A DNA stretch of 32,040 nucleotides from Coriobacteriia bacterium (GTDB lineage Bacteria; Actinomycetota; Coriobacteriia; Coriobacteriales; Eggerthellaceae). The stretch is taken from positions 1-32,040 of the forward strand of contig JAUNWQ010000017.1 of NCBI GenBank assembly GCA_030540225.1, given 5' to 3'. This document shows positions 7,155-30,761 of the stretch, one piece after another. Both the position numbers and the translations under genes were made by a program. Below the pieces are notes generated by a model that was not told where the DNA came from, ran no database searches, and saw only the letters and a program-made list of their open reading frames with translations. The number at the start of each line of letters is the position of its first letter. Position 1 is the stretch's first letter.

Positions 7155-7158
7155 TCAT

Positions 7159-10083: not shown

Positions 10084-10152
10084 GCGAGACAAACGAAATA
10101 ATAGTACTCTCATGCAGGTGCGTTATTGGGGATCGATTGCTCGGGAGGGTTT

Positions 10153-12045
10153 ATGAAGCGTGCGAGCGGAGCAGAGGCTCAGGGGGTGCTTTCGTCTCGT
10201 TGGTTCCATCTTGCCGTTCTTGCTTTGGGGTCGGCGTTTGTGCTTGTGGGGGCTTTCCATGGCTATATCTGGTTCGATGAGAGCTATTCGGTTGCCATAG
10301 CGAACCATTCGTTCTCCGAGATTTGGCGCATCGGCTCGGGCGATGTGCATCCCGTGCTCTTCTACTGGGCGCTGCATGTCCTCAACCTGGTTTTCGGGCA
10401 GAACATTCTTGTGTATCGCCTGTTCACGGTTCTGGGGTCGATCGCCCTTGCAAGCCTTGGATACACGCATGTCCGTCGCGATTTCGGCTGGAAGCCTGGT
10501 GTGCTGTTCACCGCATTCGTCCTGTTCATTCCCTATACCGCCATTATGTCGACCGAGATTCGCATGTACTCGTGGGCGACGTTTTCCGTCATGCTGTGCG
10601 CGCTCACCGCGTGGCGCATTGCGTGCGCTTTGCGCGAGCCGGCGCGCGAAGGCTCTGTGGCCTGCGTCCAGAAACGCGCGCAGGGGAAGAGACTTCTTGC
10701 GGGTGCGCCGCTTTCGTGGTGGGCTGTCTTCGCTGTGTCAAGCCTGTTCAGCGCATACCTGCACTACTTTGGCGCCATGTCCGCCTTTATGGTGAACCTG
10801 CTGCTGCTCATCTTCTGCATCAATCGAGCCGCCCGTCGACGTGGCGCGGCGGCTTTGGGGGTACTCGTTGCGAGCGCCGTCATCCAGGTTGCGCTCTATG
10901 CGCCCTGGCTTATGGTGCTCGTGCATCAGATGGGCGTTGTGTCGAACACGTACTGGGCGAACATGGTGTTTCCCGTCACCTACATCGAGTTCGCGACGTA
11001 CCCGGTGCGAACGAGCTTCGTGCATTTCGCGCTGGAGGGGAACTACGGCGCCGTGCCCCAGGTGGTGGGGCGGGTTCTCCTGGCAGCGACGCTCGTGTGG
11101 CTTTGCGCGTGGGTCATCTGGTCTCTCGTGCGCCTGGTGAAGTCGCATGTTCTTGCGGGCGAACGTGCGGAAGGCGGCTCGCGCGCTGCGACGGGGAAGC
11201 CTGCGGGAGGCGAGGACTTCGGGGAGCGGGCTGCCGTGGGCTTTGCGAACGAAGACAGCTCGTGTTCTACGAATGCGCCCGCCGAGGATGGTGAGCTTCC
11301 TGCGAATTTCACCCCCGAGTCCGAAAGCCCCCGCGCTCAGCGCGATTCGCTTTCTCGGCGCCTTGCCGTTTGGGCCTCGCGCGATTCGGTTGCCCCCGTG
11401 CTCTGTGCGCTCGCGATTTACCTGGGCGTTTTCGCGATTTCCTTTTCGGCCTCCATCCTGATGGACTCGCTTATCGTGTACTACCGCTACCTCGGGGTGG
11501 CAATCGGTCCGCTCCTATTTGCGGCGGTAATGCTTCTTTCCCGTATTTGCTCGCGCGTACTCGTCGGTGCGGCATGCGCTATCCTCCTTTCCGTCTCCGC
11601 CCTCAACATGACGCTCCTCGTCGGCGACTTCTACAGCTTCGACAACCAGGAGGCGCTCGACGAAGTGCGCCAGACGGTCGATCGCGTGACGCAGGAAAAC
11701 GACGGGAAGGCTCCGCTTGTCGTCTCGTCCGATATCGGCTACATCAGCCTGACGTCGCTTGCCTATCCCGACATTTCCCAAACGTACATGGATTGGCAGA
11801 AAGGCAACTGGAACTTGGCGTATGAAGCGTATTCTCCTACCCTCACCTGCAAAAACTCTTGGGAAGAGATTCTTGGTGGCTACCATGGCCCGATTGTCGT
11901 TTTAGGGCAGACCCAAAACGGCGCCATGTCGCGCGACGTTGAGGATCTCTCGAAGCGTGATGGGTTCGAGCTGCGGGAATCGGGCACCCGCTACCGTCCC
12001 TACGAACGCGCCTGGTTTACCGTTGCGGTCATCGATAAAGATTAG
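10153..12045 (+). CDS. GT-C membrane glycosyltransferase (GT39/ArnT-like)
   Basis: The 630-residue protein has many hydrophobic helices. An early extracytoplasmic loop after helix 1 contains WFDESYSVAIANHSF and GDVHPVLFYWALHVL, the acidic DE and HP pattern of GT-C enzymes. These transfer a sugar from a polyprenyl-phosphate donor to protein, lipid or wall polymer outside the membrane. TEIRMYSWATF matches the next conserved segment. A hydrophilic stretch of about 85 residues, rich in Glu, Ala, Gly and Ser (roughly bases 11150-11390), splits the helices into two groups and is probably a cytoplasmic loop. The start at 10153 is chosen for the cgggagggt site just upstream. Donor and acceptor are unknown. 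Confidence 0.88.
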   Translation: MKRASGAEAQGVLSSRWFHLAVLALGSAFVLVGAFHGYIWFDESYSVAIANHSFSEIWRIGSGDVHPVLFYWALHVLNLVFGQNILVYRLFTVLGSIALASLGYTHVRRDFGWKPGVLFTAFVLFIPYTAIMSTEIRMYSWATFSVMLCALTAWRIACALREPAREGSVACVQKRAQGKRLLAGAPLSWWAVFAVSSLFSAYLHYFGAMSAFMVNLLLLIFCINRAARRRGAAALGVLVASAVIQVALYAPWLMVLVHQMGVVSNTYWANMVFPVTYIEFATYPVRTSFVHFALEGNYGAVPQVVGRVLLAATLVWLCAWVIWSLVRLVKSHVLAGERAEGGSRAATGKPAGGEDFGERAAVGFANEDSSCSTNAPAEDGELPANFTPESESPRAQRDSLSRRLAVWASRDSVAPVLCALAIYLGVFAISFSASILMDSLIVYYRYLGVAIGPLLFAAVMLLSRICSRVLVGAACAILLSVSALNMTLLVGDFYSFDNQEALDEVRQTVDRVTQENDGKAPLVVSSDIGYISLTSLAYPDISQTYMDWQKGNWNLAYEAYSPTLTCKNSWEEILGGYHGPIVVLGQTQNGAMSRDVEDLSKRDGFELRESGTRYRPYERAWFTVAVIDKD

Positions 12046-12237
12046 AGTGCTTGCAAGGGGCTTCCAAGGGGCCGATACATGGCATTTTGCGAATGAGCTT
12101 GTATCAGGAGATGTGCGCAGCTGATAAGCTGGGGGAGGGGAAGGCGACCGCTGGTGTGACCTCGTTTTCCGCACTGTGCGACGTAGTCGCCATTGAAGGC
12201 GCTTTCCATTTATGTGCGTCTTGTGTGCGCTTTAGCA

Positions 12238-12246
12238 TGCTAGAAT
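12238..12246 (+). promoter_or_regulatory. Extended -10 promoter of the purine permease
   Basis: TGCTAGAAT is an extended -10 (TGn plus TAGAAT) 122 bases before the start codon. No good -35 is visible, as is common with extended -10 sites. Upstream, 12046-12237 shows no gene. Confidence 0.5.
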
Positions 12247-12257
12247 CCTTCCGTTGA

Positions 12258-12269
12258 GAAAATGTTTTC
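12258..12269. promoter_or_regulatory. Candidate operator downstream of the permease promoter
   Basis: The palindrome GAAAATGTTTTC (5-bp arms, 2-base centre) begins 12 bases after the -10 box. It lies at or just after the expected start of transcription, where a repressor would block it. The shape resembles LacI-family half-sites, but the protein is unknown. Confidence 0.35.
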
Positions 12270-12270
12270 A

Positions 12271-12343
12271 CGCGAAAGTGCCCAGTTTGGGTTCACCTCG
12301 GCAGCTGAGTCTTCAGGTGCGGGCTTGACTGATCGCTTTCGCG
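12271..12343 (+). ncRNA. Candidate structured leader RNA of the purine permease
   Basis: 12271-12280 pairs with 12334-12343 over 10 bp (one G-U). Inside, ccca/tggg (12281-12291) and cacct/aggtg (12294-12298 with 12315-12319) form two hairpins. The result is a 73-base three-way junction ending just before the aagggagg ribosome site. The layout recalls purine riboswitches, but their conserved core (ATA, TTTCTACC, GACTAT) is absent. It is either a different element or chance pairing. Confidence 0.3.
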
Positions 12344-12367
12344 CGGGCGCAAGGGAAAGGGAGGAAA

Positions 12368-13687
12368 GTGGACTCGTTTTTTAAGATTTCGGAGCGCAAG
12401 AGCACGATCGGAAACGAGATCATCGGCGGCTTGACGACGTTTCTCGCGATGGCATACATCATCGCAGTGAACCCGAATATGCTGGTGGTCGCAGGTGTTC
12501 CGTTTGATGCGGCGCTCACGGCGACGTGCTTCGGCGCGGCGATCATGACCATAGCGATGGGTCTTATCGCGAACCGGCCGATTGCGCTTGCATCCGGTAT
12601 GGGCATCAACGCAATCGTGGCGTACACGCTCTGCCTTGGCGGCGCTGCCGTCGACTGGCGCGTGGCGATGGCCATCGTCTTCTTGGAAGGTATCGTAATC
12701 CTTATCCTGGTTGCCTGCGGTTTGCGCAAGGCGGTCATGGACGCGATTCCCGTGAGCTTGCGCCATGCAATCGGCATTGGCATCGGTCTGTTCATCGCAT
12801 TCATCGGTCTTAAAGGCGGCGGCATCATCGTCGCCAACGAGTCGACCATCTTGGGGCTTGGCGACCTGTCGGCGCCGGTTGCGATCGTGTCGCTGATCGC
12901 GATCGCGGTTGCCGTGGTGCTTCAGGTTCTCAATGTGAAGGGCGGCCTGCTCATCTCCATTATTGTTGCCACCATCGCGGGCATTCCCCTGGGCGTCACC
13001 CCGCTTCCCTCATCGTGGAGCTTCGGGCTCGACTTCTCGGCCTTCGCGGCACCGTTTCAGACGATTCCCGGCACCGACACGATGGCCATCGCGCAGGTCT
13101 TCCTGCAGCCCGCGCTGCTGCTGTTCGTGTTCTCCCTGCTCATGAGCGACTTCTTCGACACCATGGGCACGGTCGTCGCCGTTGGCGAACAGGCTGATTT
13201 CGTCGACGAGAACGGCGATGTGAAGGACATCCAGCCGATTCTCATGGTCGACTCCGCCGCAGCCGCCGTCGGCGGTTTCGTCGGCGCAAGCTCGGTCACG
13301 AGCTTCGTTGAGTCCACTTCGGGCGCTGCCGCCGGTGCGCGCACGGGCCTCTCGAACTTGGTGGTCGGCATCCTGTTCGTGATCTTCGCGTTCGCGTCGC
13401 CCATCATCGGCATGGTGTCGAGCTCCGCGACCTGCGGTGCGCTCGTCGTCGTTGGCTATCTCATGCTCTCCGACGTCATCAACATCGACTGGACGCGCAT
13501 CGAGTTCGCCTTCCCGGCGTTCGCGACCATCATGGGCATCCCGATGACCTACTCGATTACCAACGGCATCGGCTTCGGCTTCATCTCCTACTGCGTGATT
13601 ATGCTGGTCACCGGCAAGGCGCGCGAGGTCAAGCCCCTCATGTGGGTGGCCGCCATCGCGTTTTTGGCCATGTTCATCTTAAGCTAG
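12368..13687 (+). CDS. AzgA-type adenine/guanine/hypoxanthine permease (NCS2 superfamily)
   Basis: The 439-residue polytopic protein imports purine bases by proton symport. It starts FFKISERKSTIGNEIIGGLTTFLAMAYIIAVNP, the hallmark of the AzgA/PbuG branch, and continues with ALASGMGINAIVAYT and SLRHAIGIGIGLFIAFIGLKGGGIIV. SDFFDTMGTVVAVGEQADFVDENGDV and SSVTSFVESTSGAAAGARTGLSNLVVG, the substrate-site segments, follow. Translation starts at a GTG (12368) behind a strong aagggaggaa site. The leader carries an extended -10, a palindrome and a foldable 73-base segment, so expression is probably controlled by purine status. A large terminator hairpin follows. Confidence 0.95.
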   Translation: MDSFFKISERKSTIGNEIIGGLTTFLAMAYIIAVNPNMLVVAGVPFDAALTATCFGAAIMTIAMGLIANRPIALASGMGINAIVAYTLCLGGAAVDWRVAMAIVFLEGIVILILVACGLRKAVMDAIPVSLRHAIGIGIGLFIAFIGLKGGGIIVANESTILGLGDLSAPVAIVSLIAIAVAVVLQVLNVKGGLLISIIVATIAGIPLGVTPLPSSWSFGLDFSAFAAPFQTIPGTDTMAIAQVFLQPALLLFVFSLLMSDFFDTMGTVVAVGEQADFVDENGDVKDIQPILMVDSAAAAVGGFVGASSVTSFVESTSGAAAGARTGLSNLVVGILFVIFAFASPIIGMVSSSATCGALVVVGYLMLSDVINIDWTRIEFAFPAFATIMGIPMTYSITNGIGFGFISYCVIMLVTGKAREVKPLMWVAAIAFLAMFILS

Positions 13688-13706
13688 CAGTTTCGTTCGC
13701 CACACT

Positions 13707-13769
13707 CGAAGGGCCTCGCTTGTCGAATCGTCCCCTCTCTCGGAGACCGTTCGACGGCGGGGCCCTTCG
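13707..13769 (+). terminator. Long hairpin terminator after the purine permease
   Basis: cgaagggcc (13707-13715) pairs with ggcccttcg (13761-13769), and an inner gtcgaa/ttcgac adds 6 bp. It is followed by ctttct. The remaining interval up to 14009 holds the SDR promoter region and no supportable gene. Confidence 0.6.
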
Positions 13770-18264: not shown

Positions 18265-19065
18265 ATGATCAAGCTTATCGCAAGCGATATGGACGGCACG
18301 CTGCTCGATGCGGAAGGCAACGTCCCGCCTGAAACGTTTGAGCTCATCAGTGGACTTCGCCGCTGCGGAGTCCACTTCGTCGCGTCTTCGGGGCGCCGCT
18401 TCGACACGCTTTCCGAGCAGTTCGCGCCCGTGATCGAGCTTATGGACTTCGTCGCGTCGAACGGCGCGCAGGTCGTCGTCGGCGGCAAGCTGGTTGACCG
18501 CGAGGTCTTCTCTCATGCCGCCGTGTGCCGCCTCTACCGCGCGGTCACCATGTTCGACGTGCTTCACCTGGCCCTATTCGATCGGACGAACAGCTTCCTC
18601 CTCGACGACGAGGCCGTTTTCGAGCGCGAGATCGACAAGAACCTTCCCAACCCCGTGCGCGCCTACGAGGTGCCTTCCCCGGAGACGAGCATCATCAAGG
18701 CGTCGGTGTATGTGAGCGACGGCACCGTCATGGACATGTCCTATGCGCTCACCCGCGAGCTGGGGGAGGACTTCGTGTTCGCTCCCTCGGGCCGCAAATG
18801 GATCGACGTCATGCAGCGCGGCGTGAACAAAGCGACGGGAATTCGCCAGGTCATGGAGGCGCACGGCGTCTCGGCCGACGAGGTCGCGGCGTTCGGCGAT
18901 TCCATGAACGACTACGAGATCCTGCGCATGGTCGGCATGCCCATCGCGATGGAGAACGGTCGCTCGGCCGTAAAGCAGGTTGCGCGCAAGGTCATCGGCC
19001 CCAACACCGAGCACAGCGTGCAGAAGGAGCTGCGCCGCATGCTCGAGGAGCTTTCCGCTCGATAG
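18265..19065 (+). CDS. Cof-type HAD-IIB phosphatase
   Basis: The 266-residue protein is a haloacid-dehalogenase hydrolase of the Cof subfamily, cytosolic phosphatases of sugar phosphates, nucleotides or cofactors. Motif I is DMDGTLLD with the nucleophile Asp8, motif II is ASSGR (VASSGRRFDTL), motif III uses Lys in SGRKWIDVMQRGVNKATGI, and motif IV is FGDSMNDYEILRMVG. The IIB cap lies between motifs II and III. The start is decided by an aaggag site 7 bases upstream. Its substrate cannot be assigned. The last codons are echoed just past the stop. Confidence 0.93.
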   Translation: MIKLIASDMDGTLLDAEGNVPPETFELISGLRRCGVHFVASSGRRFDTLSEQFAPVIELMDFVASNGAQVVVGGKLVDREVFSHAAVCRLYRAVTMFDVLHLALFDRTNSFLLDDEAVFEREIDKNLPNPVRAYEVPSPETSIIKASVYVSDGTVMDMSYALTRELGEDFVFAPSGRKWIDVMQRGVNKATGIRQVMEAHGVSADEVAAFGDSMNDYEILRMVGMPIAMENGRSAVKQVARKVIGPNTEHSVQKELRRMLEELSAR

Positions 19066-19106
19066 CTCGCGGGGCGAGGAGCTTCCCGCTTGGCAACTCG
19101 TAGGGC
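19045..19106 (+). repeat. 31-bp diverged tandem repeat across the HAD stop codon
   Basis: Bases 19045-19075, spanning the last codons and the stop of the HAD gene, are followed directly by a second copy at 19076-19106. They match at 24 of 31 positions, and all seven differences are transitions. Confidence 0.6.
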
Positions 19107-19204
19107 ATGGATATTTCTCGGCCGTTCGGGAAGATGTTCTTGCGCTCGCGCCCGTTACGCGCAACGATAAGCAGTTGAAAGTTAGCGCGGGGGGCGAGGT
19201 TTGC

Positions 19205-21736
19205 ATGACACGGGAAAAAAACGATGCGGCGAGAGTCGATTCGGGGGATGGGGGAGCGCTCCTGGAAGGCGGTTCGTCTGGAGAAGACTCATCTTCGGGC
19301 GATTCGCTCGCAGGTGGTGAACCCGCAGGTCGCAAGCATGATTCGAATGATGGGCCCACGCTTGACACCTTGAAGGCGGGGCAGTGCGCGATTATCAAGG
19401 CGGTGCGCGGCCACGGCGAGCTGCGTCGCCATCTGCTCGACATGGGGCTTACGCCCGGCATTGGGGTGCGCGTGCGCAAGGTTGCCCCGATGGGCGACCC
19501 TATCCAGATCGAGCTGCGCGGCTACGAGCTGACGCTGCGCCTCGACGACGCCCGCTTCGCCCTGATTGAGCCCGTGGAGTCCCTTCCCAAGACGCCCGTT
19601 CCCGTCGAACCGTTGTCCCGCGCGTCCGCGCACCCCGGCATCGGCGAGGTGAGCGCGACAGGCGACGACTACATCCGCAACCTCGGTGAGCCTCTGCCCA
19701 AGGGCGCGCCGATTACCTTTGCGCTCGCTGGCAACCAAAACTGCGGCAAGACCACGCTGTTCAACCAGCTCACAGGTGCAAATCAGCATGTTGGCAACTT
19801 CCCTGGTGTCACTGTCGACAAGAAGGAGGGCCAGCTGCGCCGTCATCCCGAGGCGACGGTGGTCGACCTTCCCGGCGTCTACTCGCTCTCGCCGTACTCG
19901 AACGAGGAGGTCGTGACGCGCGACTTCCTGATCAAGGAGAAGCCCACCGCGATCATCAACATCGTCGATGCGACCAACATCGAGCGCAACCTTTATCTCA
20001 CGTTGCAGTTGATGGAGCTCAACATCCCGATGGTGCTCGCGCTCAACATGATGGACGAGCTCTCCGCGAACGGCGGCTCGGTGCGCATCAACGAGCTCGA
20101 GGCGGCGCTCGGCATTCCCGTCGTGCCCATCTCCGCGGTGAAGAACCAGGGCATCGACGAGCTTGTCGACCACGCAATGCACGTTGCGATGAACCGCGAG
20201 GTCCCCGGGTACATCGACTTTTGCCCCGCAGGCGAGAAGTCGGGCGATCCGCTCGGCGAGGTGCACCGCTGCGTTCATGCGTTCATGCACCTCATCGACC
20301 CCTATGCGAAGGCAGCGGGTCTGCCTGTGCGCTTTGCGGCGACGAAGATGGTCGAAGGCGACCCGCTGATCGAGCGCGAGCTCGGCGTTCCCGAGCGCGA
20401 GCGTGAGGCGCTCACCGGCTTCATCGAGGCCCTTGAGCGCCAAGGCGGGCTCGACCGCGAGGCGGCGCTCGCGAACATGCGGTTCTCGTTCATCGAGCGC
20501 CTCTGCGCGCGCACCATCGTCCGCCCGCACGAAAGTCGCGAGCATGTCCGCAGCGTGGCGGCAGACCGCATCCTGACCGGGCGCTTCACCGCCATCCCGT
20601 GCTTTATTCTCATCATGGGGTTCGTGTTCCTCATGACGTTCAGCTGGCTTGGGGCGTGGCTGTCGGATTGGCTGCAGACGGGTATCGACTTTGTGGTCGG
20701 CGCCATCGGCGATGCGCTTGCCGCGGCGGAGGTGAGCCCGATTGTAAGCTCGCTCGTGACCGACGGCATCTGCGGCGGCGTGGGAAGCGTGCTTGGGTTT
20801 CTGCCGGTCATCGTCACGTTGTTTTTGTTCCTGTCCATTCTTGAGGACAGCGGGTACATGGCGCGCGTGGCCTTCGTGATGGACAAGCCGCTGCGCCGCC
20901 TTGGCCTTTCGGGCAGAAGCTTCGTTCCCATGCTCATGGGGTTCGGCTGCTCGGTGCCGGCGATCATGGCATCGCGCACCTTGTCGAGCGAGCGCGATCG
21001 CAAGATGACGATCCTTCTCGTCCCCTTCATGAGCTGCAGCGCGAAACTTCCGATATACGGCCTGCTCACAAGCGTATTCTTCCCGCCTGAGATGCGTGGC
21101 CTCGTGGTGCTTGCCCTCTACTTGCTCGGCATGGCGGTAGGCGTCCTCTATGCGCTTGCGCTCAAGCGGTTCAAATTCACCGGCGAGCCCGTGCCGTTTG
21201 TGATGGAGCTTCCCAACTACCGCCTTCCCAGCGCGAAAAGCGTGCTTCGCCTCGTATGGGACAAGGCGAAAGGGTTCATCCAGAAGGCGTTCACCGTCGT
21301 GTTCCTCGCGACGCTCGTCATCTGGTTCCTGCAGACCTTCGACGCGGGGCTCGGTCTTGCGGCAAGCGCTGACGAGAGCCTGCTCGCCCTGATCGGCGGC
21401 GCGATCGCCCCGGTGTTTGCCCCGCTTGGCTTCGGCGACTGGCGCGCATCGACGGCGCTGCTCACCGGCTTCATGGCCAAGGAGAGCGTCGTGTCCACCT
21501 TGACCGTGCTCGTCGGCGGCGGCGTCGCGGCGCTGCAAGAGGTGTTCACGCCTTTCACGGCATTTGTGTTCCTCGTGTTCACCCTGCTCTACACGCCCTG
21601 CGTGGCCGCTATCGCGACGGTGAAGAAGGAGACGAACGGTCGCACGGCCGCGAAGCTCGTGGTGTCCCAGTGCGTCGTCGCGTGGGTCGTGGCGTTCTGT
21701 ATCCGCGCCGTGGGGCTTGCGTTCGGGCTTGTGTAG
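19205..21736 (+). CDS. feoB: FeoA-FeoB fusion, ferrous iron transporter
   Basis: The protein imports Fe2+ across the inner membrane. In its 843 residues the order is: an N-terminal tail (1-50) of Ser, Gly, Asp and Glu; a FeoA SH3-like domain (51-124, LKAGQCAIIKAVRGHGELRRHLLDMGLTPG); a G domain with GNQNCGKTT (176-184), GNFPGVTVDKKEG, DLPGVYSLSPYSNEE and NMMD; then the membrane part. The two gate motifs GFGCSVPAIMASR and SCSAKLPIYG are intact, with the conserved Cys residues. FeoA and FeoB are usually separate, but fusions are known, for example in Porphyromonas. The start at 19205 is the most likely: the frame runs open back into the HAD gene, but the upstream part has no FeoA similarity. The ribosome site (gggcgagg) is weak. 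I found no clear Fur or DtxR box. Confidence 0.95.
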   Translation: MTREKNDAARVDSGDGGALLEGGSSGEDSSSGDSLAGGEPAGRKHDSNDGPTLDTLKAGQCAIIKAVRGHGELRRHLLDMGLTPGIGVRVRKVAPMGDPIQIELRGYELTLRLDDARFALIEPVESLPKTPVPVEPLSRASAHPGIGEVSATGDDYIRNLGEPLPKGAPITFALAGNQNCGKTTLFNQLTGANQHVGNFPGVTVDKKEGQLRRHPEATVVDLPGVYSLSPYSNEEVVTRDFLIKEKPTAIINIVDATNIERNLYLTLQLMELNIPMVLALNMMDELSANGGSVRINELEAALGIPVVPISAVKNQGIDELVDHAMHVAMNREVPGYIDFCPAGEKSGDPLGEVHRCVHAFMHLIDPYAKAAGLPVRFAATKMVEGDPLIERELGVPEREREALTGFIEALERQGGLDREAALANMRFSFIERLCARTIVRPHESREHVRSVAADRILTGRFTAIPCFILIMGFVFLMTFSWLGAWLSDWLQTGIDFVVGAIGDALAAAEVSPIVSSLVTDGICGGVGSVLGFLPVIVTLFLFLSILEDSGYMARVAFVMDKPLRRLGLSGRSFVPMLMGFGCSVPAIMASRTLSSERDRKMTILLVPFMSCSAKLPIYGLLTSVFFPPEMRGLVVLALYLLGMAVGVLYALALKRFKFTGEPVPFVMELPNYRLPSAKSVLRLVWDKAKGFIQKAFTVVFLATLVIWFLQTFDAGLGLAASADESLLALIGGAIAPVFAPLGFGDWRASTALLTGFMAKESVVSTLTVLVGGGVAALQEVFTPFTAFVFLVFTLLYTPCVAAIATVKKETNGRTAAKLVVSQCVVAWVVAFCIRAVGLAFGLV

Positions 21737-22470: not shown

Positions 22471-22516
22471 TCTGATTTCGTTCTTTGACTTAAACAACCG
22501 AAGGAGGTGTGAGTTC

Positions 22517-24403
22517 ATGCCACGGCTTCAAATTATGGATACCACCATCCGTGACGGCCAGCAGAGCTTGTGGGCCACGCGCATGCAGATTGGCGACATG
22601 CTGCCGATTCTGCCGAAGATGGACCGAGTAGGGTATTGGGCTATCGAGGCTTGGGGCGGCGCAACGTTCGATACGTGCCTCCGCTTCCTCGACGAGAATC
22701 CTTGGGAGCGCCTGCGCTCCATCAAGGCGAACACCCCGAACACGCCGCTTTCGATGCTCTCTCGCGGGCAAAATTTGGTTGGCTACAAGCATTACTCGCG
22801 CGAGATCTGCAACCGCTTCATCAAGGCGGCCAACCGAAACGGCATCCATGTGTTCCGCGTGTTCGATGCGCTGAACGACATTCGAAACGTGGTGGACAAC
22901 GCCGACGCTATCAAGGAGTGCGGCGCGCATTTCGAGGGTGCAATTTCTTACACCATCAGCCCTGTTCATACGCTTGACAGCTTCCTTGATTACGGTCAGC
23001 AGCTCAAGGATCTGGGCGCCGACTCCATCTGCATCAAGGACATGGCGGGCATGCTCACGCCGTATCGCACCGAGCGCATCGTGAAGGCGTTCAATGCGGA
23101 AATCGGTCTGCCCCTGCACCTGCATTGCCACTATGTCGGCGGCATGGCCCCGGCAAACTACATCAAGGCCGCCGAGGCCGGTGCCGCGATCGTTGACACG
23201 GCGACCGCGCCACTCGCTTTCGGCAACTCCCAGCCCGCCGTCGAGATGCTTGCGGCGGCGCTCCAGGAGAGCCGTTACGATACTGGTCTTGACCTGGGTC
23301 TTCTGTTCGAGATTGCGGAATACTGGGAAGGCGTGCGCAAGCGCTGCCACTACAAGCGCGGCGTCTCCTCGCTCACACATATGAAGGTGTATTCCCACCA
23401 GGTTCCGGGCGGCATGATGTCGAACCTCATGAGCCAGCTGGAAATCCAGAACGCTACGGACCGCCTGGGCGAGGTTATGGCCGAAATCCCGAAGGTCCGC
23501 GCCGAGGTCGGCTACCCGCCGCTCGTCACGCCGATGTCCCAGATCGTGGGCACCCAGGCCGTGTTCAACGTGATCACGGGCAAGCGCTGGAGCGTCGTGT
23601 CCAAGGAGATGAAGGACTACATCTGCGGCTACTACGGCAAGGCGCCCGGCCGCATGGACAAGGAAATCGTGAAGAAGGTCGTGGGCAACTCCGACGTCCT
23701 CGATCCCGATATCGCTCCCGGCTCTCTCGTTACCACGACGTTTGACGAGGTGGCGGAAGAAATCGGAGACCTCGCGCAGAGCGAGGAAGACGTCCTCATG
23801 TACGCGCTGTTCCCCAACGAGGCGCGCACGTACCTGAGCAAGCACCGCACGTCCGAGAAGGTTGACTTCTTGCTCGAGCAGGAATCGAGCGGTACCAAGG
23901 AGGAAGATTACGTGGATATCAATCAGATTCGCGAGCTGGTTCGCGTTGCCGAGGAAAGCGGCGTCGGCGAAATCGTAGTCGAGGAGGAAGGCACCCGCAT
24001 CGCGGTGCGCATGCCCGGTCAGGCTGTGGCAGCCCCTGCGGCAGCCGCCGTCCCCGCCGCAGCTCCCACCGCTGCCGTGGCTCCCGCCCCTGCGGCGCCC
24101 GCTCCCGCGCAGGAGAGCGAGCACCCCGCCAACTGGTACGCCGTGAAGGCGCCGATGGTAGGCACCTTCTACGCGGCTCCCGCTCCCGATGAGCCGCCGT
24201 TCGTCAAGGTAGGCGACGAGGTTGCCGCCAACCAGACGCTGTGCATCGTCGAGGCGATGAAGCTCATGAACGAGATCACCGCCGAAGAGATGGGCACCGT
24301 CCGCGAGGTGTGCGTCGAGGACGCCACCCCGGTTGAGTTCGGCACCGTGCTCTTCTATATCGAGCCGCACGCGAAGACCCCGCTTGTCTCGGAGCAGTCA
24401 TAA
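22517..24403 (+). CDS. pycB: Carboxyltransferase-biotin carrier fusion (pyruvate carboxylase B / oxaloacetate decarboxylase alpha-like)
   Basis: This 628-residue protein carries CO2 between biotin and pyruvate/oxaloacetate. Residues 1 to about 300 are the HMGL-like barrel (MDTTIRDGQQS, GGATFDTCLRFL, CIKDMAGML with the active Lys, and metal ligands in HLHCHYVGG). A PYC/OadA conserved domain extends to about 460. From residue 466 the sequence changes to a complete AccB: VDINQIRELVRVAEESGVGE, a Pro/Ala linker (about 500-530), and the biotinyl domain with Lys582 in EAMKLMNE. Most OadA/PycB proteins end in a bare biotinyl domain, so the AccB N-terminal segment is unusual. Translation starts behind a perfect aaggaggtg. 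The biotin carboxylase gene overlaps by one base, which fits a two-subunit pyruvate carboxylase; no sodium-pump subunit is visible. Confidence 0.93.
   Translation: MPRLQIMDTTIRDGQQSLWATRMQIGDMLPILPKMDRVGYWAIEAWGGATFDTCLRFLDENPWERLRSIKANTPNTPLSMLSRGQNLVGYKHYSREICNRFIKAANRNGIHVFRVFDALNDIRNVVDNADAIKECGAHFEGAISYTISPVHTLDSFLDYGQQLKDLGADSICIKDMAGMLTPYRTERIVKAFNAEIGLPLHLHCHYVGGMAPANYIKAAEAGAAIVDTATAPLAFGNSQPAVEMLAAALQESRYDTGLDLGLLFEIAEYWEGVRKRCHYKRGVSSLTHMKVYSHQVPGGMMSNLMSQLEIQNATDRLGEVMAEIPKVRAEVGYPPLVTPMSQIVGTQAVFNVITGKRWSVVSKEMKDYICGYYGKAPGRMDKEIVKKVVGNSDVLDPDIAPGSLVTTTFDEVAEEIGDLAQSEEDVLMYALFPNEARTYLSKHRTSEKVDFLLEQESSGTKEEDYVDINQIRELVRVAEESGVGEIVVEEEGTRIAVRMPGQAVAAPAAAAVPAAAPTAAVAPAPAAPAPAQESEHPANWYAVKAPMVGTFYAAPAPDEPPFVKVGDEVAANQTLCIVEAMKLMNEITAEEMGTVREVCVEDATPVEFGTVLFYIEPHAKTPLVSEQS
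23897..23914 (+). promoter_or_regulatory. Internal Shine-Dalgarno and GTG start at the CT-AccB junction
   Basis: AAGGAGG (23897-23903) stands 8 bases before an in-frame GTG (23912-23914) inside the carboxyltransferase-BCCP gene. This is a perfect ribosome site at optimal spacing. The codon coincides with the first residue of the AccB-like part (VDINQIRELV compared with the MDIRKIKKLI start of E. coli AccB). Confidence 0.6.
23912..24403 (+). CDS. accB: Nested in-frame AccB (biotin carboxyl carrier protein), predicted internal start
   Basis: From the internal GTG this frame would encode a free 163-residue biotin carrier with the biotinyl Lys at position 117. E. coli AccB has 156 residues with Lys122, so the nested product has the size and layout of a normal AccB: an N-terminal D-I-x-x-I-x-x-L segment, a Pro/Ala-rich linker, and APMVGTFYAAPAPDEPPFVKVGD before EAMKLMNE. 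It precedes accC with a one-base overlap, the usual accB-accC order. If made, it would let the same biotin carboxylase serve acetyl-CoA carboxylase as well as the pyruvate enzyme. That it is translated is inference; the site may instead be the remnant of the gene fusion. Confidence 0.5.
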   Translation: MDINQIRELVRVAEESGVGEIVVEEEGTRIAVRMPGQAVAAPAAAAVPAAAPTAAVAPAPAAPAPAQESEHPANWYAVKAPMVGTFYAAPAPDEPPFVKVGDEVAANQTLCIVEAMKLMNEITAEEMGTVREVCVEDATPVEFGTVLFYIEPHAKTPLVSEQS

Positions 24404-25755
24404 TGTTTAAGAAGATCCTCATCGCCAATCGCGGGGAAGTTGCGCTGCGCGTCATGCGTGCCTGCAAGGAGCTCGGGGTGAAGACCGTGGCGGTTTACTC
24501 GACCGCCGACAAGGACACCTACCCGGTTCGCTACGCTGATGAAAAGGTTTGCATCGGACCTGCTCAGGCGAATAAAAGCTATCTCGTGATGTCGAACATC
24601 ATCGAGGCGGCGAAGATTACCGGCGCCGAGGCGATCCATCCCGGCTACGGCTTTTTGGCTGAAAACGCCGACTTCGCCCGCGCCTGCGTCGACAACGACC
24701 TCGTGTTCATCGGGCCTTCCGCCGAGTGCATCGAGCGCATGGGCGACAAGTCTTCCGCGCGCGAGACCATGAAGGCCTGCGGTGTCCCCACGGTGCCCGG
24801 CTCCGACGGCTGCATCGACACCGTTGAGGAAGCGCGCGCCTTCGCCGAGGAAGTCGGCTACCCGGTGCTCATCAAGGCCACGGCGGGCGGCGGCGGAAAG
24901 GGTATGCGTGAAGTGCACGACCCGGCTGACCTCGAATCCCACTACAAGGCCGCTCGTGCCGAGGCTGGCGCGGCGTTCGGCAACGACGAAGTGTACCTCG
25001 AGAAGCTCGTGCTGCGCCCTCGCCACGTCGAGGTGCAGGTGCTCGCCGACAACCACGGCAACAACGTGGCGCTTTGCGAGCGCGACTGCTCGGTGCAGCG
25101 TCGCCACCAGAAGCTCATCGAAGAGGCTCCGTCCCCGGCGCTTACCGAGGAGCTGCGTCGCGCGATGGGCGTTGCAGCCATCAAAGCGGTGCGCGCGGTC
25201 GACTACAAAAACGCCGGCACGATCGAGTTTCTGCTCGACACCACGGGCAAGTTCTACTTCATGGAGATGAACACGCGCGTGCAGGTCGAACATCCCGTTT
25301 CCGAGCAGATCACGGGCACCGACATCATCAAAGAGCAGCTGCGAATTGCGGCTGGCGAACCTATGAGCTGCGCCGATCGCGCTCCGTTCACCCCCTTCGG
25401 CCATGCGATGGAGTTCCGCATCAACGCCGAGGACCCCGATCACGGCTTCCGTCCGTGCCCGGGCAAGATCACGCGCTTCGAGCCCCCGATGGGCCCGGGC
25501 GTGCGCGTGGAGACCTACGTTCACGAAGGCTCCTCGATTTCGCCTTATTATGACTCCATGGTGGCGAAGGTCATCGTGAGCGGGCAGGATCGCGAGGAAT
25601 GCCTTGCACGCGGTCGCCGCGCGCTCGACGAGTTCAAGATCGAAGGCATCGCCACCACGTTGCCGTTCCACCGTCGCGTGCTCGACAACGAGGTGTTCCG
25701 TGCGGGTGAAGCCACGACTGACTTCATCGAGACCCAGATGGGAGACTTGTTATGA
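24403..25755 (+). CDS. accC: Biotin carboxylase
   Basis: The enzyme carboxylates biotin on its carrier with ATP and bicarbonate. At 450 residues it equals E. coli AccC (449) in length. It shows KKILIANRGEVALRVMRACKELG, HPGYGFLAENADFA, the ATP-grasp glycine loop KATAGGGGKGMR, ERDCSVQRRHQKLIEEAPSP, FYFMEMNTRVQVEHPVSE with metal-binding Glu and Asn, and the catalytic Arg of RVQVEHP. The ATG overlaps the stop of the preceding gene (TAATG). Its partner is either the fused carboxyltransferase (pyruvate carboxylase), the nested AccB (acetyl-CoA carboxylase), or both. The next gene overlaps by four bases. Confidence 0.96.
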   Translation: MFKKILIANRGEVALRVMRACKELGVKTVAVYSTADKDTYPVRYADEKVCIGPAQANKSYLVMSNIIEAAKITGAEAIHPGYGFLAENADFARACVDNDLVFIGPSAECIERMGDKSSARETMKACGVPTVPGSDGCIDTVEEARAFAEEVGYPVLIKATAGGGGKGMREVHDPADLESHYKAARAEAGAAFGNDEVYLEKLVLRPRHVEVQVLADNHGNNVALCERDCSVQRRHQKLIEEAPSPALTEELRRAMGVAAIKAVRAVDYKNAGTIEFLLDTTGKFYFMEMNTRVQVEHPVSEQITGTDIIKEQLRIAAGEPMSCADRAPFTPFGHAMEFRINAEDPDHGFRPCPGKITRFEPPMGPGVRVETYVHEGSSISPYYDSMVAKVIVSGQDREECLARGRRALDEFKIEGIATTLPFHRRVLDNEVFRAGEATTDFIETQMGDLL

Positions 25756-26105
25756 GTGAGTTGAACGTCGAAGGTATGGCGCTCGCCCCGGGCGTCGTGG
25801 AAACAATCGTGTCCATCGCGGTCAGCGAGGTCGAGGGCGTTGCGTGCGTCGGCTCGGCGAGCACTCAGGGCCGCGGCATCCGTGCCGTGTTCGGCCAGAA
25901 GCCGTCGACCCAGGGAATCGAAATCACCGTAAACGAAGATAACAAACTGGCAGTCGCCGTGCGCATCGAGGTCTACTACGGCTTCGTGCTTCCCGAGGTC
26001 GCATCCAGCTTGCGCCAGGCTGTGGCCGATGCGGTGACAAGCCAGGTCGGCGTCGAGGTTGCCTCGGTCGATGTCTACATCGACGGCATCCAGTTCGCCG
26101 AATAG
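25752..26105 (+). CDS. Asp23/Gls24-family protein (YqhY-like)
   Basis: The 117-residue cytosolic protein matches the Asp23/DUF322 family: LAPGVVETIVSIAVSEVEGVACVGS, GIEITVNEDNKLAVAVRIEVYYGFVLPEVASSLRQAVADAV and VASVDVYIDGIQF. In Bacillus subtilis the homologue YqhY is encoded between accC and nusB and influences acetyl-CoA carboxylase activity. The same position here implies a link to the carboxylases, which is inference from gene order. The start overlaps the accC stop by four bases (ATGA), so translation is coupled. nusB follows after 7 bases. Confidence 0.92.
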   Translation: MSELNVEGMALAPGVVETIVSIAVSEVEGVACVGSASTQGRGIRAVFGQKPSTQGIEITVNEDNKLAVAVRIEVYYGFVLPEVASSLRQAVADAVTSQVGVEVASVDVYIDGIQFAE

Positions 26106-26112
26106 GAGATCA

Positions 26113-26784
26113 ATGGCATCACGACGACACGAACGCACCGCTGCGCGTCAAAGCGCGCTCCAGGTGCTCTATACCAGTGAAATAAAGGGCATCCGCCCGT
26201 CCGATTTGCTCGATTCGGGCCTTGTGCTCGAAGACGACGGCAAGTCGCTTTCGGACTACGCGATCGGGTTGATCGAGGGCGTCGACGAGAAGATGCTCCC
26301 CATCGACGTGCGTCTCAATTCGACTTCCGAGAACTGGAAGCTCAACCGCATGCCCATCGTCGACCGCTGCATCCTTCGTCTGGCGACGTATGAGATGCTC
26401 TTCGTCGACGAGGTTCCGGTTTCGGTTGCCATCAACGAGGCGGTCGAATTGGCGAAGGATTTCGGCGGCGAGGACGAGTCGCCCCGTTTCGTGAACGGCG
26501 TTTTGGGCCGCATTGCCCGTCAGCTCGAGGAAGACGCGAAAGATCCCGAGGCGGCGCGCCGTCGAGAGGAAGAGGCCCTGGCGGCCTACGCGTTCCCGAC
26601 CAATGAAGAAGATTCTGTAGCTGAAACCGCTGGCGAGCAGCCCGCAGCGGAAGGCGCCGTTGAGAACGCGCCCGCGGCAGAAGGCGAGGATACCTCGGCT
26701 GACGCCGTGTCGCCCGAAGAGCCGGCTTGCGCAGCAGAGGAACCAACCTGTGCTCCTGAGGAGCCGGTGAATGTCGGACTCTAA
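26113..26784 (+). CDS. nusB: Transcription antitermination factor NusB with acidic C-terminal extension
   Basis: NusB binds boxA RNA with NusE to promote antitermination on rRNA operons. Residues 1 to about 142 are NusB: RRHERTAARQSALQVLY, then NRMPIVDRCILRLATYEMLF, DEVPVSVAINEAVELAKDFGGEDESPRFVNGVLGRIA. The normal protein is about 140 residues, but here it continues to 223 with a tail rich in Glu, Ala and Pro (AAAEGAVENAPAAEGED-like composition, no fold evident). The start at 26113 follows aggagat and begins MASRRHERTAARQ, as in the family. The last 14 bases overlap xseB. Confidence 0.95.
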   Translation: MASRRHERTAARQSALQVLYTSEIKGIRPSDLLDSGLVLEDDGKSLSDYAIGLIEGVDEKMLPIDVRLNSTSENWKLNRMPIVDRCILRLATYEMLFVDEVPVSVAINEAVELAKDFGGEDESPRFVNGVLGRIARQLEEDAKDPEAARRREEEALAAYAFPTNEEDSVAETAGEQPAAEGAVENAPAAEGEDTSADAVSPEEPACAAEEPTCAPEEPVNVGL

Positions 26785-27085
26785 CGCTGCATCGTACGAT
26801 CAGGTTCGCGACCGCCTCGACGAAATCGTCGAGGCGGTAAGTGCGCCCGGCATCTCGCTCGACGAAGCGCTCGCGCTCTACGAGGAGGCGGTGAAGCTCG
26901 GCCTTTCCGCATGCGACCTGTCTGAGGAAGGCGCCGAGGAGCTTCTCGAGCAGGATGCTGCAAACCTCACAACCGAACAGGGCGAACAGGCCAACCAGGC
27001 CGAGGCGACCGACAATCAAGACTCGCCCGCCGAGGGCGAGGCGGCCGTTGCGCGTCAAGACGGGGCGACGCCGGCTGCGCGATAG
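26771..27085 (+). CDS. xseB: Exodeoxyribonuclease VII small subunit
   Basis: The first 60 residues are XseB: SYDQVRDRLDEIVEAVSAPGISLDEALALYEEAVKLGLSACDL, the helical hairpin that binds XseA to form the single-strand exonuclease VII. XseB is normally 60-85 residues, but this one has 104 because of an acidic Glu/Gln/Ala tail. The large subunit gene xseA, usually adjacent, is not in the window. The ATG at 26771 lies within the nusB 3' end and has a gaggag site inside that gene, so the two are translationally coupled. Confidence 0.88.
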   Translation: MSDSNAASYDQVRDRLDEIVEAVSAPGISLDEALALYEEAVKLGLSACDLSEEGAEELLEQDAANLTTEQGEQANQAEATDNQDSPAEGEAAVARQDGATPAAR

Positions 27086-27134
27086 CACCGCTTTTGCGAC
27101 GAAGGCGCGAGGGGGAAAGAGGAGTTCTTGCATT

Positions 27135-29018
27135 ATGGCGAATAAGCGCATACTTGACGTGGTCGATTCACCTGCCGACCTGAAACTTCTCACCGATGAT
27201 GAGCTCTCGATCCTTGCTCGCGAGATCAGGGAGCAGATCATCACCACCACTTCTAAAACGGGTGGCCATGTGGCGTCGTCCCTTGGCGCGGTCGAGATTA
27301 TCCTTGCAGTTCACAGCCTTCTTAACTGCCCGGAAGACAAGTTCATCTTCGACGTGGGGCACCAGTCGTACGCGCACAAGCTCGTGACGGGGCGGCGCGA
27401 TCGTTTCGATACGCTGCGCACGTTCCATGGCATTTCAGGTTTCCCGAAGCCTTCCGAGAGCGAATACGACGTGCATGCTTCCGGCCACGCGTCCGACTCG
27501 CTTTCGATTGCCGTGGGGCTCGCCAAGGCGCGAGCGCTTTCGGGCGGCTCGAACAAGATCGTCGCGCTCATCGGCGACGCGGCGTTAGGCGGAGGCATGG
27601 CCTTCGAGGCGCTCAACTACATCGGACAAGCCCAGCTTCCCATGGTCATCATCCTGAACGACAATGAGATGTCCATCTCGCGCAACGTCGGTGCGCTCAT
27701 GAAGCACCTTGGCTATTTGCGCACGTCATCGTCGTATCGTACGACGCGCGATCGCGTGCAGGAGGCTATGGAGCAGTCGGGCGCTCTCGGCAGCGCCCTC
27801 ATGCACTTCGGGCGCAACGCGAAGGAATCGATGAAGCAGTTCGTCATTCCCCACTCCATGATCTTCGAGCAGCTGGGCATCGTGTGCACGACGCCGGTCG
27901 ACGGGCACAACATCCACGAGCTGAAGGAAATGCTCTCGACGTGCCTGGCCGCAGATGGCCCGGTGCTCATGCACGTGGTCACCAAGAAGGGCGCCGGGTA
28001 TGGTCCCGCTATGGCGGAGCCGACGCGTTTCCATGGTACGGGTCCTTACGATATCGCCACGGGCAAGGCTATAAAGAAGCCTGCAAAGGCCCCGAGCTAC
28101 ACCTCGGTGTTCGGGAAGGCCCTCCTGAACGAGGCGCGCGCCGATGAGCGCATCGTTGCGATCACCGCCGCGATGGAAAGCGGCACGGGGCTCACTGACT
28201 TCGAAAGGGAGTTCCCCGACCGCTTCATCGACGTGGGCATTTGCGAGGAGAACGCAGCCGGTATGGCGGCGGGACTCGCTATCGGCGGGCGCAAGCCGGT
28301 GTTCGCCGTGTACTCTACGTTCCTGCAGCGCGCCATCGATCAGCTTATCGTCAATAACGCCCTCATGAACCTCGATGTCGTGTTCGCCATCGACCGCGCG
28401 GGCCTGGTGGGCGCCGATGGGCCGACGCACCACGGCGTGTTCGACCTGGTCTATACGCGCATGGTTCCCAATATGCGCGTGCTTGCGCCCTCCAACGAGG
28501 CGGAACTCGTGAACTCCCTTCATACCGCGCTTGTGCTCGGCGGGCCGTTCGCGGTGCGCTATCCGCGCGGCGAGGCGTGCGGCGTGCCCGTTCCCGACAA
28601 GCCCGAAACCTACGAGCCTGGCGTGTCTCGCCTGGTGAGAGAAGGGTCCGATGTCGCGATTCTCGCGTTCGGGAATATGGTTGAGCCTGCGAACGAGGCT
28701 GCGGCTGTGCTTGAGGAAGCGGGCCTGTCCGTTCGTGTCGTTGACATGCGTTGGGTGAAGCCACTCGATACTGAGGCGATTCGCAAGGCATCCGAAACCC
28801 GTCTCGTGGTGACGGTCGAAGACGGTGTGGCCGCAGGCGGTGTCGGGGAAGAGGTGATCGCCGAGCTCGCGCGCCAGAACGAGAAGGTGCCCGTGCTCAC
28901 GCTGGGCATTCCCGACCGCTACATCATGCAAGGCGCCCCCGACTTCCTCATGCACGAACTCGGCCTCGACGCCGAAGGAATCACCGCTGCCATTCAGGAG
29001 AAACTCGAAGCGCTCTAA
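27135..29018 (+). CDS. dxs: 1-deoxy-D-xylulose-5-phosphate synthase (variant active-site motifs)
   Basis: The enzyme joins pyruvate and glyceraldehyde 3-phosphate to begin the MEP isoprenoid pathway, using thiamine diphosphate. The 627 residues follow DXS throughout: KTGGHVASSLGAVEIILAVH, FDVGHQSYAHKLVTGRRDRFDTLR, LNDNEMSIS, VTKKGAGYGPA, YSTFLQRAIDQ, DRAGLVGADGPTHHGVFD. Several usually fixed positions differ: the thiamine motif reads GDA (Asp148, Ala149) rather than GDG, and the AEQHAVT segment around the catalytic Glu371 reads CEENAAG. The catalytic Glu, the His residues of GGH, DGH and THHG, and the Mg-binding Asp and Asn are kept, so activity is likely. The start at 27135 follows agaggag at 10 bases. 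Confidence 0.93.
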   Translation: MANKRILDVVDSPADLKLLTDDELSILAREIREQIITTTSKTGGHVASSLGAVEIILAVHSLLNCPEDKFIFDVGHQSYAHKLVTGRRDRFDTLRTFHGISGFPKPSESEYDVHASGHASDSLSIAVGLAKARALSGGSNKIVALIGDAALGGGMAFEALNYIGQAQLPMVIILNDNEMSISRNVGALMKHLGYLRTSSSYRTTRDRVQEAMEQSGALGSALMHFGRNAKESMKQFVIPHSMIFEQLGIVCTTPVDGHNIHELKEMLSTCLAADGPVLMHVVTKKGAGYGPAMAEPTRFHGTGPYDIATGKAIKKPAKAPSYTSVFGKALLNEARADERIVAITAAMESGTGLTDFEREFPDRFIDVGICEENAAGMAAGLAIGGRKPVFAVYSTFLQRAIDQLIVNNALMNLDVVFAIDRAGLVGADGPTHHGVFDLVYTRMVPNMRVLAPSNEAELVNSLHTALVLGGPFAVRYPRGEACGVPVPDKPETYEPGVSRLVREGSDVAILAFGNMVEPANEAAAVLEEAGLSVRVVDMRWVKPLDTEAIRKASETRLVVTVEDGVAAGGVGEEVIAELARQNEKVPVLTLGIPDRYIMQGAPDFLMHELGLDAEGITAAIQEKLEAL

Positions 29019-29247: not shown

Positions 29248-29484
29248 ATGTGGACCAACGCTTATTCATACGAGGATATCGGTGAGTTTCTGCGCGAGGC
29301 GCGCAGGGATCGCGGCATCACACAGGTCGAGATGGCGAAAAAGCTTGGCTTCTCGTCGGTGACGCTTTCGGCGCTTGAGACGGGCAAGAATGTGTCGGCG
29401 GCCAAGGTTGACCGTTACCTGCAGCAGTTGGGCTTTCGCATGGTCATCGTTCCCAAGGGCGCGGACGTGAAGGTGACCGAATGA
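29248..29484 (+). CDS. hipB: HipB-like antitoxin, XRE helix-turn-helix
   Basis: The 78-residue protein is a small Cro/C1-type DNA-binding protein: DIGEFLREARRDRGITQVEMAKKLGFSSVTLSALETGKNVSAAKVDRYLQQLGFRMVIVPKGADV. It should bind its own promoter and neutralise the HipA kinase encoded next. The start at 29248 (MWTNAYSYEDI) is preferred because the promoter places the transcript start too close to the alternative GTG at 29215. Its ribosome site is weak. The stop overlaps the hipA start by four bases (ATGA). Confidence 0.88.
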   Translation: MWTNAYSYEDIGEFLREARRDRGITQVEMAKKLGFSSVTLSALETGKNVSAAKVDRYLQQLGFRMVIVPKGADVKVTE

Positions 29485-30761
29485 GGCAGCTCGACGTATT
29501 TCTGGGGGATAACCTGATCGGGCATGTTATCGAGAACCGCAAGGGAGGACGCTTCGAGTACGAGCGGTCGGTCGTCGATAAGCTCGCTGGTCGGCCAGTA
29601 CTCTCGATGGCGTTTCCCGCGAAGGATCGCCCGTTCGGCGAGGCAAAGACCTCTGCATGGTTCAACGGTCTGCTTCCCGAGGGAAACCGTCGCGACGAGA
29701 TCTGCAGGAGCCTTGGTGTTTCGCCCTACGATTGGATCGGCCTTCTTGCCGAGATAGGCTGGGAGTGTGCTGGTGCTGTGAGGGTGTTTGAGTGCGGCCG
29801 CAAGAGAACTCGTGAATTGCGGTTCGAGGCGATTTCCCCATCGGCGCTAGCCGAAAAGCTCTCGAGCGTTACGGAGCGGCTTCCGCAAGCGGAGAGCGGA
29901 TTGTTTCGCATGTCGCTTGGCGGATTCCAGGAGAAGATGTGCGTTGTTATGCCGAGGATTCCCGAGGGCGCGCGCTTCGTCACTGCCGATGACGTCCTGC
30001 TGCCGATGGACGACAGTCCCAGCACGCATATCCTTAAACCTGAAAGCGAACATTACCCTGGCTTGGCGGAGTCCGAGGCCTGGGCCGTGACGGCAGCCGG
30101 GCACGCGGCGCGTGCGTCTAGGGTGGCTCTGCTCGACTTGGACGACGCACCGGGCACGCTTGTGGTCGAACGCTATGACAGAATTGTCGATGACGTCTCC
30201 AAGCGTGTAGTTAGACTTCATCAAGAGGACGCTTGTCAAGCGCTTGGAATCGATCCGCACGGCAAGTACGCCGCCGCGAGCGCGCCTAAGGGCGATGATC
30301 CAACGTATGCCGCAATCGCCGACTTGCTGCAGAAGTTCTCTCCCGACCCCGAGAGTGAGAAGGAAGAGTTGTTGCGCCAGCTCGTTGCGAATCTGGTGCT
30401 TGGAAATTGGGACGCGCACGCCAAGAACACGTCGTTTCTCTACCGCGAGCAGATGGTTCCCACGCTCGCGCCGCTCTATGATGTGGTGCCCATCGCCGAG
30501 GTTGAGCCCCGGACGGAGATCCTTTCCATGCGCGTCAACGGGGTGATAGACCCTGCGAAGTTAACGAGGAACGATGTTGTCGCCGAGGCCTCTGCCTGGG
30601 GGTTGGACACGGTGTGCGCAGAGGAGGTTATAGACTGCGCGCTCCAGAATCTCGAGGAGGGAATTCGCATTGCGTCGATAGCGTACTCGGGTGCTGCGGC
30701 CCGCCATGAGGCCAAAGCCTTGGGAAGGGTATGCAGGCTGAAAAGGGATTCTTGCCCTTGA
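29481..30761 (+). CDS. hipA: HipA-family serine/threonine kinase toxin
   Basis: HipA-type kinases phosphorylate translation factors, such as GltX in E. coli, and induce dormancy. The 426 residues carry the N-terminal subdomain (LSMAFPAKDRPFGEAKTSAWFNGLLPEG), MSLGGFQEK with Ser145 matching the autophosphorylated Ser150 of E. coli HipA, the nucleotide-binding ILKPE, GNWDAHAKN with Asp311 matching the catalytic Asp309, and LYDV with Asp334 matching Asp332. Those equivalences are by position and motif. It is coupled to hipB by a four-base overlap. Target unknown. The pair stands alone between the dxs operon and amt, a typical position for a horizontally acquired toxin-antitoxin module. Confidence 0.93.
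   Translation: MRQLDVFLGDNLIGHVIENRKGGRFEYERSVVDKLAGRPVLSMAFPAKDRPFGEAKTSAWFNGLLPEGNRRDEICRSLGVSPYDWIGLLAEIGWECAGAVRVFECGRKRTRELRFEAISPSALAEKLSSVTERLPQAESGLFRMSLGGFQEKMCVVMPRIPEGARFVTADDVLLPMDDSPSTHILKPESEHYPGLAESEAWAVTAAGHAARASRVALLDLDDAPGTLVVERYDRIVDDVSKRVVRLHQEDACQALGIDPHGKYAAASAPKGDDPTYAAIADLLQKFSPDPESEKEELLRQLVANLVLGNWDAHAKNTSFLYREQMVPTLAPLYDVVPIAEVEPRTEILSMRVNGVIDPAKLTRNDVVAEASAWGLDTVCAEEVIDCALQNLEEGIRIASIAYSGAAARHEAKALGRVCRLKRDSCP

Follow-up and report, generated by a model that had tools for sequence, protein, structure and literature searches.

Here, we describe a pycB-type carboxyltransferase gene of a Coriobacteriia bacterium that carries a complete accB at its 3' end, in the same reading frame and behind a Shine-Dalgarno (SD) sequence of its own, and that probably supplies subunits to two different enzymes. 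The gene lies in a window of 32,040 nucleotides, i.e., the whole stretch of DNA that was analysed, to which all positions refer unless a contig is named. We propose that a pycB-type gene was joined, in the same reading frame, to the start of accB in an accB-accC-yqhY-nusB locus, and that accB would have kept its own ribosome-binding site after the fusion. Initiation at 22517 would then yield a CT-BCCP subunit of about 67 kDa, expected to form oxaloacetate together with AccC, and independent initiation at 23912 would yield a free AccB of about 17 kDa, which with AccC and an AccDA fusion would make malonyl-CoA. As judged from sequence comparison, this explanation as a whole, with a fusion, an internal start and one gene for both oxaloacetate and malonyl-CoA, is likely to hold. 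Initiation at 23912 is its firmest part and appears very probable, and there is a good probability that the internal product serves acetyl-CoA carboxylase (ACC) in most carriers. We infer with less certainty than for the start itself that free AccB acts in fatty-acid synthesis and shares AccC, and fatty-acid supply as the only role of free AccB is not supported.

The fusion gene (22517 to 24403, plus strand, as are all features of the window named here) starts with ATG behind an AAGGAGG at 22501 to 22507 with a hybridisation energy of -14.8 kcal/mol. Its 628 residues match HMGL-like, PYC_OADA and Biotin_lipoyl, and its best NCBIfam match is PRK09282.1, pyruvate carboxylase subunit B, in line with the first-pass annotation, which had taken it for a 628-residue pyruvate carboxylase subunit. 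Domain profiles and an AlphaFold2 model delimit the carboxyltransferase part to residues 1-446 (22517 to 23854). It is followed by a linker of low pLDDT, residues 447-465 (23855 to 23911), which carries the internal ribosome site: an AAGGAGG at 23897 to 23903 (-10.9 kcal/mol), a spacer of eight bases, and an in-frame GTG as codon 466 (23912 to 23914), a start codon conserved across the 149 and 29 fusion loci described below. The first-pass annotation had pointed out exactly this arrangement and had regarded the GTG as the first residue of a 163-residue AccB module. The profile and structure alignments, both of which start at residue 1, bear this out. The nested accB (23912 to 24403, 163 aa) matches TIGR00531 over its full length, with positions 1-155 of 156 aligned from AccB residue 1 and 161.8 bits against a cut-off of 115.2, and its residues 1-151 align to a BCCP chain of 4hr7 (chain residues 21-176), which we take to be the BCCP of E. 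coli with a tag of 20 residues in front. EAMKxMNE is the biotinyl lysine motif; it occurs here as EAMKLMNE, its lysine (codon at 24260 to 24262) is Lys582 of the fusion and, as had been claimed, Lys117 of AccB, and it is invariant in all 23 rows of the alignment. Thus, both the full-length match above the cut-off and the lysine motif of an AccB are present. The one-base overlap with accC that had been noted was found as well: accC (24403 to 25755), a biotin carboxylase of 450 aa with 680 bits to TIGR00514 and an SD of -5.8 kcal/mol, starts at the last base of the stop codon of the fusion gene.

In the AlphaFold2 model of the fusion (23-sequence alignment, mean pLDDT 74.9), pLDDT falls below 50 at residues 447-466 and the first AccB helix spans residues 468-481, which places the internal start at a predicted domain boundary. 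The gene resembles the beta subunit of a two-subunit pyruvate carboxylase in having a PYC_OADA/HMGL-like carboxyltransferase and a C-terminal BCCP next to a biotin carboxylase gene. In such enzymes, as described in PMC5059739, the linker is a BT-like beta-sheet and the alpha subunit, of about 471 aa, ends in a docking helix. Neither feature was found here: CT and BCCP are linked by the complete N-terminal module of an ACC-type AccB, AccC has 450 aa, and the gene, unlike that class, has an internal start. A sodium-extruding oxaloacetate decarboxylase alpha subunit was rejected as an assignment, as TIGR01108 gives 631.6 bits, under its equivalog cut-off of 756.5.

Downstream of the fusion gene the window holds accC, an Asp23/YqhY-family gene (25752 to 26105), nusB, xseB and dxs, and the Asp23/YqhY-family gene together with the latter three marks an accB-accC-type locus. 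In a set of 29 loci from relatives, some of them short, 28 hold accC, 26 nusB, 17 Asp23 and 16 dxs. PMC5437119 describes accBC-yqhY as the operon for acetyl-CoA carboxylase in Bacillus subtilis, conserved among Firmicutes. The AccB part shares with the AccB of such operons the full-length TIGR00531 match and the same neighbours, accC and the Asp23/YqhY family; it differs in lacking a gene of its own, its coding sequence being the 3' part of a longer one. From the accC-Asp23/YqhY-nusB neighbourhood it follows that this part stands in the normal place of accB, with the carboxyltransferase in front. For Actinobacteria, PMC5437119 reports that accBC-yqhY lacks such conservation; the order accC-Asp23/YqhY-nusB-xseB-dxs (24403 to 29018) is nevertheless seen in this Coriobacteriia genome. 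Two other genes of the window may be recorded here: an ORF of 918 aa at 18980 to 21736, with an uncertain TTG start, combines FeoB with an N-terminal FeoA-like stretch, and 29481 to 30761 encodes a HipA-like protein with Couple_hipA and HipA_C domains.

The bare motif is weak evidence on its own. AAGGAGG-N5-9-RTG occurs four times in the window, where 0.28 occurrences are expected, and two of these lie inside other ORFs. Likewise, 436 of 87,689 other in-frame codons of fusion genes (0.5%) are start codons with an SD of -7 kcal/mol or stronger. Although the motif is not rare, its exact position and a synonymous conservation beyond that of control columns rule out chance.

The junction was read in 155 rows, six of which were left out: L202 and L207, which have an ATG at the column in a frame without carboxyltransferase and are ordinary accB genes behind fabF, and the divergent Actinomycetota fusions L044, L045, L048 and L049. 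The remaining 149 loci, mostly from Coriobacteriia, include the window and represent 143 distinct sequences when 600 bases about the site are compared; in every one of the 148 other than the window, the carboxyltransferase lies in the same frame. Among the matches listed, long frames outside this reading include those of G011, G038, G123, G135, G137, G139 and G145, and frames of 166 aa and 162 aa occur in G023 and G035.

The internal codon is a start codon in 149 of 149 loci (118 GTG, 29 ATG, 2 TTG), while the encoded residue varies between V, M and L. Valine at this position is GTG in 118 out of 118 cases, compared with 71% in the next-best valine column and 44% gene-wide. Fitch counts on a tree of the 143 distinct sequences give six switches among start codons and none to a non-start codon. 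Once columns of invariant methionine are set aside, 46 V/M/L columns remain, and among these it is the only one without a change between start and non-start, the next best having six; and among valine sequences V466 shows no synonymous step, where 40 other valine columns show 23-59. The SD is conserved in a similar manner. The E462 column in its middle has no synonymous step against at least nine in the other 32 glutamate columns, and GAG encodes 139 of 139 glutamates in the aligned column, where the median over 49 glutamate columns is 73%; the 139 of 139 depends on the alignment and becomes 128 of 129 when the offset is fixed at -4 codons. At five codons ahead of the start, arginine is encoded by AGA or AGG in 38 of 40 cases, with 4.5 expected. 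The SD at the correct distance is the strongest among 592 columns (-10.2 kcal/mol, the mean being -3.0); columns 465 and 467, whose windows overlap that of the start column, are also high. The SD reaches -7 kcal/mol in 133 of the 143 distinct sequences; the other ten are weaker, at -5.6 to -6.5. Predicted local mRNA folding is also reduced at the site, -5.9 against a background of -11.1 kcal/mol in 60 sampled sequences.

Synonymous shuffles of the SD region give a mean of -8.2 kcal/mol against -10.2 observed (Wilcoxon over sequences, p 3e-20), with a median per-sequence p of only 0.52. A single sequence is thus no proof, and the amino acids already account for much of the SD strength. The Wilcoxon value, like the Poisson-binomial value for codon use, ignores phylogeny; the Fitch counts take the tree into account. 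At the synonymous level, start codon and SD are both constrained beyond the protein, as is expected of genes with internal in-frame initiation. Conservation in related genomes, named in the first-pass annotation as a check on its reading, was found in 119 of 119 fusions read from the Coriobacteriia class and in 29 of 29 from the Desulfosporosinus class. Its interpretation of a nested accB is supported by this comparative evidence, on which dual translation is predicted.

From the Desulfosporosinus class 30 loci were taken (L218-L247), 29 of which are fusions with the carboxyltransferase in frame. All 29, a count that leaves out the window and L237, have a start codon at the column (11 ATG, 11 TTG, 7 GTG) and an SD of -7 kcal/mol or stronger, and the linker ahead of the SD differs widely among them. 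Desulfosporosinus fructosivorans and, outside this class, Enteroscipio rubneri are examples of carriers in culture. The thirtieth locus, L237 (genome G284, 60-2050, minus strand), holds an accB that stands alone, right behind accD- and accA-like ORFs. It keeps the same AAGGAGG, an ATG at AccB residue 1 and an in-frame, fusion-like linker remnant of about 12 residues, with stop codons in the same stretch ahead of it; a BCCP search of G284 found no fusion. We read L237 as a nested module that probably works as a free ACC gene, in one case and on one contig. Among 82 genomes of the class, a fusion-size frame is present in 49 and a stand-alone accB over the cut-off in 21, with G296 alone having both; 29 of the 49 frames were read and the others rest on frame length, and G284 is counted as stand-alone. 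Of 69 genomes with accD, 45 have the fusion only, 19 the stand-alone gene only, one both and four neither. This near-exclusion is expected if the fusion gene replaces accB. G296 itself has two BCCP matches in fusion-size frames as well as a stand-alone accB (C12:6246-6731, C50:16406-16855, C41:21069-21479).

The first-pass annotation had also proposed a search for a separate accB, the absence of which would support a dual role. In the home genome, which is 94.5% complete, the outcome is divided. A whole-genome PF00364 search together with the ORFs found no stand-alone accB beside accDA. The fatty-acid cluster (L086, C52:1-13000, 279-7569) reads fabK-fabD-fabG-fabF-fabZ-accDA, with fabF and accDA named by profile and the other fab genes by eye; accD and accA are fused into one protein of 856 aa, and the cluster holds neither accB nor accC. 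The sole other Biotin_lipoyl match of the genome is a 200-aa AccB on contig C7 (131.7 bits), with its own AccC, in a 5-oxoprolinase cluster (L087, C7:5000-20000, 5659-13710) of the order pxpB-pxpC-accB-accC-hydro-lyase, a protease-like ORF (by eye) and pxpA. The arrangement pxpB-pxpC-accB-accC recurs in five of five other genomes of the family that were checked (L210-L213, L217). This second AccB and AccC could in principle serve ACC, and the full-length fusion itself might do so too. Among 119 Coriobacteriia genomes with the fusion, not all of them 90% complete, 66 have accD and fabF and the fusion as their only TIGR00531 match. A single accC over the cut-off was found in six of 16 genomes searched, all among the 66 (G136, G003, G211, G072, G058, G016).

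Several results stand against the simplest fatty-acid story. Sixteen fusion genomes lack a strong accD match; every one of them keeps the internal start codon, 14 with an SD of -7 kcal/mol or stronger. The five without any PF01039 carboxyltransferase (G102, G163, G204, G219, G227) all keep GTG, with SDs of -10.9 to -11.3 kcal/mol; in G163 and G204 the codons agree with those of the nearest relative having fatty-acid genes at only about 30% of the shared residues. The start and a strong SD are likewise present in all eight genomes that have three TIGR00531 matches, and in G066, the one of the eight that was checked, a second accB lies inside the fab cluster. A relaxed start where fatty-acid synthesis is missing was looked for and not seen in this sample. 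Since the start is kept without a PF01039 carboxyltransferase and in G066, ACC supply cannot be its whole reason, and the start is a fixed property of the fusion family and not only a response to a missing accB. Its persistence may mean either that the fatty-acid losses are too recent, or that free AccB additionally has a role in pyruvate carboxylase assembly, or that the site additionally feeds the translation of accC.

Loss of the internal SD in close relatives that keep the fusion had been named as evidence against the nested gene. Close relatives keep the start; more divergent fusions do not have it. The codons at the column are GAC, ACG, GCC and GGC in the divergent Actinomycetota fusions L044, L045, L048 and L049, and GTA in L035 of the Deltaproteobacteria (42% identity); the archaeal L038 and L047 have no start at the column either. 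The genome of L035 (G268) has a separate 153-aa accB over the cut-off, that of L044 (G270) has no accD match, in that of L045 (G271) a further frame with a BCCP lies about 1 kb from accD, and those of L048 and L049 (G272, G273) have only weak extra matches. What these genomes with startless fusions contain agrees with the proposed role of the nested gene, in few cases.

Internal initiation may be real and free AccB still act, for the most part, in the structure or stoichiometry of pyruvate carboxylase, rather than primarily as a fatty-acid subunit; AccC and AccB would form a subcomplex to which CT-AccB attaches. The start that is kept in the five genomes without PF01039 carboxyltransferases and in G066 fits such a role. 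So does the possibility that the biotin carboxylase docks via AccB and not via a BT-like domain, as in the excerpt of PMC5059739, which is suggested by the length of AccC and by the match of the linker region to the AccB N-terminal module. We nevertheless hold this explanation to be unlikely, as it leaves aside that fusion and stand-alone accB nearly exclude each other in the Desulfosporosinus class, that G284 has the module as a separate gene behind accD-accA, and the 66 genomes with accD and fabF in which the fusion is the only TIGR00531 match; moreover, at least 14 of the 49 Desulfosporosinus-class fusion genomes also have a frame of the length of a single-chain pyruvate carboxylase. The internal site could, on the other hand, mainly load ribosomes for a weakly initiated accC, with free AccB as a by-product. 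The one-base overlap and the weak SD of accC in the window point in this direction, and accC, which was located in 115 of the 143 distinct loci, overlaps in 37 of these, only three of the 37 having an SD of -7 kcal/mol or stronger. In 78 of the 115, however, there is no overlap, in 41 accC has an SD of its own of that strength, and the internal start is kept in 143 of 143; nor would coupling need a start exactly at AccB residue 1, which makes it distinctly unlikely as the main function.

Two further explanations dispense with a second protein altogether. An SD-like purine run might be kept only for ribosome pausing between two domains that fold, or for its amino acids: it sits in an interdomain linker, the residues K/R-E-E/D are themselves conserved, random synonymous codons for these residues already average -8.2 kcal/mol, and the 436 other in-frame sites show that a start plus SD can occur by chance. 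The exclusive use of NTG across V, M and L, the lack of synonymous change at V466 and the dip in mRNA structure would all be left unexplained, and we regard this as highly improbable. A site left over from a two-gene state and now inactive, with ACC using the full-length fusion or another BCCP, would account for the motif in any single genome, and the second AccB of the home genome and the existence of divergent fusions without a start are compatible with it. Such a fossil would hardly have been retained at the codon divergence of G163 and G204 and in relatives from two phyla, so that we consider it extremely improbable. The fusion with an internal start that yields free AccB is thus the explanation that we prefer.

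Internal in-frame initiation is already known, and the proposed AccB nested in a pycB gene would be another form of it; no report of such a nested AccB was found in the open-access PMC literature, which is not proof of absence. PMC11899642 describes Cas11 small subunits such as Cas11b, in which the C-terminal domain alone is made from an internal in-frame start in a cas8-type gene with a potential SD. The present case is alike in that a C-terminal domain would be made alone from a start in the same frame, its short product being predicted; it is unlike in that both Cas products join one complex, whereas the products described here would serve two enzymes. Truncated products from internal starts are also given, in PMC11005335, for the long and short forms of CcmM and for proteoforms of CheA, InfB and SsaQ/SpaO. 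These share with the predicted AccB the truncation from an internal start, but they are not biotin enzymes. From the side of the enzymes, a passage of PMC3199775 discusses a hypothetical ancestral promiscuous biotin carboxylase, common to a PCT-BCCP subunit and to independent BCCP and CCT subunits. It resembles our proposal in that one biotin carboxylase serves pyruvate and CoA substrates, and differs in that separate BCCPs and no nested gene are proposed there.

A serious, but still tentative, extension is that we see an ancient nested gene of Coriobacteriia and Desulfosporosinus-type Bacillota, in which the ratio of the two starts would divide one biotin carboxylase between oxaloacetate for anaplerosis and malonyl-CoA for fatty acids, possibly in mixed AccC-AccB/PycB-AccB assemblies. 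If the fusion with its internal start works as proposed, it would explain the apparent absence of accB in many genomes, among them the 66 of 119 fusion-bearing Coriobacteriia genomes, and pathway reconstructions in which the gene figures solely as pyruvate carboxylase subunit B would have to be corrected. It would also be a compact case in which the two starts of one gene feed two enzymes with a common third subunit.
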